From Acidimicrobiaceae bacterium (GTDB taxonomy: Bacteria; Actinomycetota; Acidimicrobiia; Acidimicrobiales; Bog-793), in contig DAHUXW010000041.1 of NCBI GenBank assembly GCA_027306925.1, positions 1 to 51,827 on the forward strand: a stretch of 51,827 bases of DNA, in the 5' to 3' direction. The first letter of the stretch is position 1. Every line of letters begins with the position of its first letter. The notes beneath the pieces were generated by a model. That model saw only the letters and a list, made by a program, of their open reading frames with translations. It made no database searches and had not been told where the DNA came from. Made by a program: the position numbers and the translations under genes. Of this stretch, positions 9,811 through 9,937 are shown piece by piece.

Positions 9811-9843
9811 ACAAAAAACCTCCTGGCCCAGGGCGCAGGAGGT
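9811..9843 (-). terminator. Attenuator terminator upstream of leuA
   Basis: The minus-strand stem ACCTCCTG/CAGGAGGT runs directly into TTTTTT followed by GTT. It lies between the leucine-rich leader peptide and leuA. The leucine codon run of the leader resembles the terminator's 5' arm and could in principle pair with the 3' arm. Confidence 0.85.
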
Positions 9844-9845
9844 CA

Positions 9846-9871
9846 CGGCGAGCGCAGAGCGGCGCTCGCCG
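9846..9871 (-). other. Leader RNA hairpin between the leuA leader peptide and terminator
   Basis: The perfect 10-bp stem CGGCGAGCGC/GCGCTCGCCG has a six-base loop and begins one base after the leader stop codon. A ribosome terminating at the stop would cover its 5' arm. This is the expected geometry for a competing or pausing hairpin in an attenuator. Confidence 0.75.
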
Positions 9872-9937
9872 TCAGGTAAGAAGGAGGAGGGTCGAAGCGC
9901 CGCCGCGGGAGACCATCGGAGCAGTGTGACGGAACAT
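9872..9937 (-). CDS. leuL: leuA leader peptide with four consecutive Leu codons
   Basis: This 21-residue frame starts MFRHTAPMVSRGGAS and ends TLLLLT before TGA. Four Leu codons (CTC CTC CTT CTT) just before the stop codon are diagnostic of a leucine attenuator. The stop is followed by a strong hairpin and then an intrinsic terminator upstream of leuA. The family expectation is that stalling at Leu codons under leucyl-tRNA shortage lets transcription continue into leuA. The frame lies 10 bases downstream of the diguanylate cyclase stop codon, so the leader promoter must overlap the end of that gene. I could not assign one with confidence. Confidence 0.85.
   Translation of the reverse strand: MFRHTAPMVSRGGASTLLLLT

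Follow-up and report, generated by a model that had tools for sequence, protein, structure and literature searches.

The leuA gene of the window, by which we mean the whole stretch of 51,827 nucleotides analysed here, is preceded by a short leader with a run of leucine codons and by two consecutive hairpins, the second of which is an intrinsic terminator. It is highly likely that this element is a ribosome-mediated, leucine-codon attenuator of leuA, and it probably turns the gene off when leucine is plentiful. The initial annotation had already read the region as a leuA attenuator with Leu codons, a reading that is now strongly supported by the identity of leuA, the conservation of the element, the genes found downstream of it and its geometry. 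To judge from folding, the regulation appears to lack the competing fold of textbook attenuators.

Organisation of the locus

The leader sits on the minus strand between a PAS/GGDEF gene and leuA, the product of which matches the NCBIfam models PRK03739 (E 5e-265) and TIGR00970 (E 2e-246). The features, in the direction of transcription, are the following.

ORF 9948-12950, minus strand: upstream PAS/GGDEF gene
9946..9951, minus strand: putative -35 hexamer TTGACG, of which TTGAC is kept in relatives
9923..9928, minus strand: putative -10 hexamer CACACT, 17-nt spacer from the -35 hexamer, 6 nt before ATG 9916
9872..9916, minus strand: leader ORF MVSRGGASTLLLLT, 14 aa, probably leaderless; a longer 21-aa form runs from 9937
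9878..9889, minus strand: regulatory Leu codons CTC CTC CTT CTT
9877-9875 and 9874-9872, minus strand: leader Thr codon and stop codon TGA
9845..9872, minus strand: hairpin 1, 11 bp (5' arm 9872-9862, 3' arm 9855-9845)
9817..9844, minus strand: terminator hairpin (5' arm 9844-9832, 3' arm 9828-9817), 0 nt from hairpin 1
9813..9818, minus strand: terminator U-tract, six U
9745..9749, minus strand: Shine-Dalgarno-like GAGGA of leuA
8057..9739, minus strand: leuA (ATG 9739), 2-isopropylmalate synthase of the PRK03739 / TIGR00970 type, the regulated gene

A hairpin after the leader and a terminator with six U had been described before, and both are present on the minus strand, hairpin 1 having 11 bp and starting in the window on the last base of the leader stop codon.

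Several further observations concern the surroundings of the element. The upstream PAS/GGDEF gene, which lies on the same strand, ends in a TGA that falls within the -35 hexamer at 9946-9951, and the protein encoded by this gene (ORF 9948-12950, minus strand) contains a long, repetitive, coiled-coil-like stretch composed of ELASAKDALSATTAELAA and its variants. The terminator 3' arm carries AGGAGG (window 9812-9824), a strong Shine-Dalgarno-like sequence located just 5' of a TTG in the leuA frame; this TTG, the first codon of ORF 8057-9814, is a possible alternative start of leuA. The plus-strand genes leuC and leuD (window 5492-8057) are convergent with leuA, the ends of leuD and leuA being at most 9 bp apart.

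Leader peptide and promoter

The leader of 21 residues ending in LLLLT that the initial annotation had proposed exists as an ORF, MFRHTAPMVSRGGASTLLLLT, but its start codon, ATG 9937, lies inside the promoter and is probably unused. As this ATG is flanked by the -35 and the -10 hexamer, it is probably the 14-residue leaderless form, beginning at ATG 9916, that is expressed, and transcription is predicted to start near the same codon, as set by TTGACG, the 17-nt spacer and CACACT. A promoter so placed before an in-frame leader start occurs in 118 of 157 relatives, as compared to 14.7 ± 3.0 in shuffled upstream DNA; a generic σ70 and terminator scanner run at strict thresholds called neither a promoter nor a terminator at the leader.

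Codons for the end product of the pathway in a short ORF are one of the features by which we recognise an attenuator, and a run of at least three Leu codons is found in 152/157 leuA elements; in 144/157 a single residue separates the final Leu from the stop codon. Among the 511 Leu codons of the leader runs in the family CTT is used 191 times, CTC 170, CTG 115, CTA 28 and others 7 times, and among the 190 Leu codons of four genes in the window CTC is used 136 times, CTG 47, CTT 4 and TTG 3 times. The Leu run of the window leader contains CTT twice, and such leader codons may be read by a minor tRNA.

Two abutting, covarying hairpins

The fold of the element in the window is more stable than expected (z -3.5), none of 200 dinucleotide shuffles being equally stable. 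In the alignment, all 21 modelled pairs of the two hairpins show changes on both sides, with 251 such cells and 98% of cells pairing. The covariation score, obtained with an alignment fitted to the model, is 0.425 versus 0.148 in shuffles; since both hairpins are conserved and none of 500 shuffles scored as high, chance is ruled out for the fold. An intrinsic terminator, made of a covarying hairpin and a U-tract, thus stands between the leader and the gene, which is another feature expected of an attenuator.

The 182 elements collected comprise 171 distinct ones, of which 170 were segmented (L198 could not be), and exactly two hairpins were found in every one of the 170. Counted from the first base of the stop codon, hairpin 1 starts at a distance of 1-4 nt in every one of the 157 leuA elements. 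It directly adjoins the terminator (0 nt) in 80 of them and never lies more than 5 nt away, the gap between the outermost G-C pairs having a median of 3 and a maximum of 7. Likewise, the gap is 0-2 nt in 11 non-leuA elements (L201 and L202 left out), although the model that retrieved the elements outside the leuA-anchored loci already encodes this geometry, so that the geometry counts are partly selected. In the main group the terminator stem has a one-base bulge before GCC (window 9829-9844), which is C in 48, T in 28, A in 19 and never G among the 157, the motif being missing in 62; the bulge often yields a GYG step 9-12 nt past hairpin 1.

Distribution of the family and the genes downstream

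Among the leuA relatives that have upstream sequence, the 29 gathered first were collected by protein and not by an RNA model and include the window's own element; each of them shows a leader with a Leu run, a hairpin located at the stop codon and, next to it, a terminator. A covariance model built from 14 of these loci gave a full match at 95 of 98 leuA-anchored loci (the training loci included) and no full match at L036, L040 and L087; L031-L035, L047 and L106-L110 are not among the 98, and L018 is cut at a contig edge and lacks upstream sequence. Full matches occur in 224/298 genomes of the order (181/227 of good quality) and in 29/346 genomes of the phylum, of which 16 belong to the same order, 1 to the same class and 12 to more distant lineages, the window's genome containing one good match. 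Most of the relatives that carry a name belong to Acidimicrobiaceae, Acidimicrobiales and Ilumatobacteraceae, and on this basis the order was taken as Acidimicrobiales. The titles of L082, L036, L039, L040 and L045 (Bifidobacterium breve, Deltaproteobacteria, Chloroflexi) are at odds with their acidimicrobial-type leuA, and these labels are probably wrong; the element of L082 is identical to that of L074 (Ilumatobacteraceae). Rfam 15 yields no match in the window, the best in 9720-10000 having an E value of 1.5, far below the gathering score, and none across 10 related loci, the leu, trp and thr leaders being included in the search.

Downstream of the 182 elements there are 123 leuA genes of the window type, 45 non-orthologous leuA genes and 14 genes that are neither, counts which are not a free sample because about half of the elements were gathered through leuA. 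The second leuA type is about 30% identical to the window protein, and one reference sequence was typed by NCBIfam as PRK00915/TIGR00973. It lies under the same leader (L118-L141 and others, e.g. L121 1501-1580), as if an exchange of the gene had left the leader in place or the leader had travelled with the function. Ten of the 14 non-leuA elements were tested by NCBIfam: six precede leuS (L147 within the order; L187, L190, L193, L196 and L202 outside it) and four precede ilvB (L191, L195, L197 and L198, all outside the order). L199 and L200 are ilvB-like by eye, and at L192 the downstream gene is cut by the contig end. L201, which has no leader run and by eye no amino-acid gene, was taken as a false positive; together with L202, which lacks a proper terminator, it was dropped from the non-leuA geometry and the non-leuA pairing test. 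The leader codons suit the gene, with LLL or similar before leuS and mixed Leu/Val/Ile runs (LVLI, VLVVLV) before ilvB. The element therefore follows function and not the gene, being found with two non-orthologous leuA types, leuS and ilvB.

Ribosome position and hairpin 1

Folding with and without the segment covered by the ribosome had been proposed at the outset as a check. It was carried out with ribosome masks whose leading edges extended from +8 to +13 relative to the A-site, and the outcome is divided: hairpin 1 does toggle, but the terminator 5' arm is not sequestered when the ribosome stalls. With the A-site at the first Leu codon the mean probability of hairpin 1 is 0.97; at the last Leu codon it declines from 0.90 to 0.46 for leading edges from +8 to +12, and at the stop codon the mean is 0.01 (0.23 to 0.00 over the same edges). 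The dependence of RNA structure on ribosome position, again a property of attenuators, is thus found for hairpin 1 in masked folding. Hairpin 1 also forms without any ribosome, and since folding shows its loss only with a ribosome near the stop codon, it would be the mark of the starved, or untranslated, state.

Two results count against this gating model. With a wide footprint a ribosome on the last Leu codon is predicted to weaken hairpin 1 already, its probability exceeding 0.5 in only 72/157 elements at +12 and in 26/157 at +13. Moreover, because hairpin 1 forms unaided, untranslated transcripts should read through, and in E. coli trp untranslated transcripts are not known to do so.

Absence of an overlapping antiterminator

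Textbook attenuation rests on mutually exclusive base pairing. At equilibrium the probability of the terminator is 0.95-0.97 in every ribosome state, a result that neither supports nor refutes the gating model, because the E. coli controls are just as flat. The informative quantity is the pairing of the terminator 5' arm before the 3' arm is made, for which the K-12 trp, leu and thr leaders served as controls: in these the arm is paired to 0.62, 0.56 and 0.90, respectively, when the ribosome is stalled, versus 0.01, 0.01 and 0.05 when it is at the stop codon. In our 157 elements the corresponding means are 0.20 with the ribosome at the first Leu codon and 0.38 with it at the stop codon; for the window the values are 0.06 and 0.33. 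A 5' arm more than half paired in the stalled state, as in all three E. coli controls, was found in only 3/157. Likewise, in each of 11 leuS and ilvB elements the pairing of the terminator 5' arm is lower with a stalled ribosome (0.06-0.51) than with one at the stop codon (0.31-0.70). This pairing test relies on nested folding, which places a tertiary antiterminator, such as a pseudoknot, outside its reach.

When native partners are compared with partners swapped between elements, the two hairpins stand out with z -33 and -21. Apart from two weak signals (Leu codons with the terminator 3' arm, z -2.5, and A:C, z -2.8), all other combinations gave no signal or one in the opposite direction. The hairpin-1 3' arm, which takes up 0.26 of the terminator 5' arm when the ribosome is at the stop codon, was rejected as its specific partner (B:C; 84/100 swaps at least as stable), as was a pseudoknot between the hairpin-1 loop and the terminator 3' arm (l1:D; 49/100).

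Proposed mechanism

The leaderless mRNA would begin at or beside the leader start codon, and the ribosome would translate MVSRGGASTLLLLT. With ample Leu-tRNA, the ribosome reaching the stop codon would cover the 5' arm of hairpin 1, such that hairpin 1 could not form, the terminator would close and RNA polymerase would halt upstream of leuA. When Leu-tRNA is scarce, the ribosome would wait on the CTC and CTT codons with its leading edge just before hairpin 1, which would then form and allow leuA to be transcribed. We infer that hairpin 1, lying flush with the terminator stem, cannot share the RNA exit channel with it, so that the base of the terminator could not zip; a hairpin-stabilised pause may contribute too.

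The computations support the parts, the conserved geometry, the covariation of the hairpins, the gating of hairpin 1 and the lack of starved-state sequestration of the terminator 5' arm. The sensor and the OFF state follow from these folding and conservation data together with known attenuation logic, and starvation would be the ON signal by analogy with the tested ilvB1 case of M. tuberculosis and from the nature of the pathway. In the ON step hairpin 1 would defeat a terminator with which it does not overlap, and its position, consistently flush with that terminator, suggests that the two exclude each other sterically in the exit channel. We lean towards hairpin 1 being the antiterminator of the starved state; that it acts by abutment, with no shared base, has in our estimation slightly less than an even chance, and the account as a whole, a ribosome-mediated leuA attenuator with a gated hairpin 1 flush with its terminator, is evenly poised.

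Alternative explanations

The initial annotation had suggested that the Leu codon stretch could compete for the 3' arm of the terminator, which would be an unusual antitermination logic. Taken by themselves, these two stretches of the window can form a duplex of -11.3 kcal/mol, and native partners pair marginally better than swapped ones (z -2.5), but as an antiterminator this pairing is extremely improbable, being without covariation, about 11 kcal/mol too weak and of the wrong sign. The best window fold lacking the terminator costs 11.5 kcal/mol (mean 11.3 over 157), while among 92 distinct aligned sequences 494/500 shuffles pair at least as often, with covariation no better. In one subgroup CTG codons are combined with a GCGGGGG terminator arm, which abolishes the complementarity, and codon choice carries no signal, the native pairing beating synonymous draws in 86/157. 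Furthermore, a ribosome on the Leu codons covers that very stretch, so that starvation would favour termination. An unusual logic may hold nonetheless by other means, no overlapping antiterminator having been found. Pairing of the Leu codons with the leuA Shine-Dalgarno sequence to govern translation, as in a translational LEU element, has a similarly negligible likelihood: it is feasible in the window (-15.7 kcal/mol as a bare duplex), but across 112 relatives the native pairing is weaker than the swapped (98/100 swaps at least as stable), and there is an intrinsic terminator here, whereas LEU elements have none. A classical overlapping (2:3) antiterminator missed by folding or segmentation, for example a pseudoknot, is unlikely. 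Overlapping or mutually exclusive hairpins are reported, in excerpts of the respective papers, for C. glutamicum ilvBNC (PMC11857589) and M. tuberculosis ilvB1 (PMC13236596), but the mean pairing given above leaves the terminator 5' arm of the 157 elements largely free in the starved state, B:C and l1:D have no native advantage over swaps, and A:C, with z -2.8, amounts to only -6.6 kcal/mol.

Hairpin 1 could instead be a pause hairpin of the his/trp type that synchronises RNA polymerase with the ribosome, control being exerted through pause lifetime and coupling and not by a block to the terminator, an explanation that we regard as doubtful while giving it some weight. In many elements hairpin 1 ends some 9-12 nt before a pyrimidine-G step, which resembles the his pause geometry, and ribosomes release paused polymerase in trp and his. 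YG steps peak at +9 to +11 from the end of hairpin 1 (57, 50 and 49/157), with GYG at +11 in 31/157, a pattern suggestive of an elemental-pause motif that could coexist with abutment. The pyrimidine-G step is not universal, however, the matching terminator base being A in 19 and the motif missing in 62/157, and a pause alone explains neither a rise of read-through on starvation nor the near-zero gap. It is also quite unlikely that a trans-acting RNA-binding protein, LEU-element-like or ANTAR-like, reads the double hairpin. The structure is compact and conserved, and Seliverstov et al. (PMC1262725) preferred a protein for leuA leaders; yet the hairpin 1 loop varies from 3 to 10 nt (3-4 nt in 57/157), the A1/G4 hexaloop of the ANTAR type occurs in 2/157 hairpin 1 loops and not in that of the window (CGCTCT), and the agreement of the regulatory codons with the gene downstream favours the ribosome, not a protein, as the sensor.

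Relation to known systems

The E. coli leu, trp and thr attenuators share with the acidimicrobial element a leader peptide with regulatory codons, an intrinsic terminator and the ribosome as sensor, but they sequester the terminator 5' arm on stalling (0.56-0.90). Other close parallels lie in the Actinobacteria. For M. tuberculosis ilvB1 the excerpted report (PMC13236596) proposes that a ribosome at the uORF stop codon masks an anti-terminator, and states that changing LVVI to AAAA abolishes induction; ilvB1NC thus resembles our element in its branched-chain codons near the uORF stop, its stop-masked anti-terminator and its intrinsic terminator, and differs in the gene (ilvB1) and in structures there described as mutually exclusive, whereas here the hairpins abut and share no base. 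C. glutamicum ilvBNC, as far as the excerpt of PMC11857589 goes, likewise has a leader peptide nearly without a 5' UTR and a terminator, but three hairpins, with an overlapping antiterminator and an anti-antiterminator, in place of two. The LEU element (Seliverstov 2005, PMC1262725) is similar in concerning leuA and a Leu-run leader in Actinobacteria; in it, however, the Leu run base-pairs with the Shine-Dalgarno sequence of leuA, a pseudoknot is present and there is no terminator, while here that pairing is unconserved and a terminator is present. Streptomyces lividans LeuL1 and LeuL2 are leaderless Leu-rich leaders before leuA and leuS, LeuL2 being followed by a hairpin and then a U stretch; in the excerpted text (PMC8079986) LeuL1, before leuA, has no terminator, and the abutting two-hairpin layout is not described.

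Leaderless Leu leaders in Actinobacteria, including those before leuA and leuS, are therefore already known (PMC1262725 and the excerpted PMC8079986). The literature searched yielded no experiment on the window's organism, no acidimicrobial leuA attenuator and no precedent for abutting hairpins as an antitermination device; what appears new is the acidimicrobial family with its two-hairpin, no-overlap layout, found neither in that literature nor in Rfam 15.

Implications

Tentatively, we propose a class of attenuators, in front of leuA in Acidimicrobiales and of leuS and ilvB in other actinobacteria, in which a gated hairpin would antiterminate without sharing a base with the terminator, keeping the terminator open by taking up its place within RNA polymerase and combining sensor, pause signal and antiterminator in one. 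The family, which is not in Rfam 15, supplies over 150 related sequences with covariation on which tests can draw. Should the layout work as proposed, two non-overlapping hairpins would be enough for attenuation and simpler to evolve, which would explain the spread of the element over two unrelated leuA genes, leuS and ilvB; search tools that seek overlapping antiterminators would then miss a class of actinobacterial attenuators.
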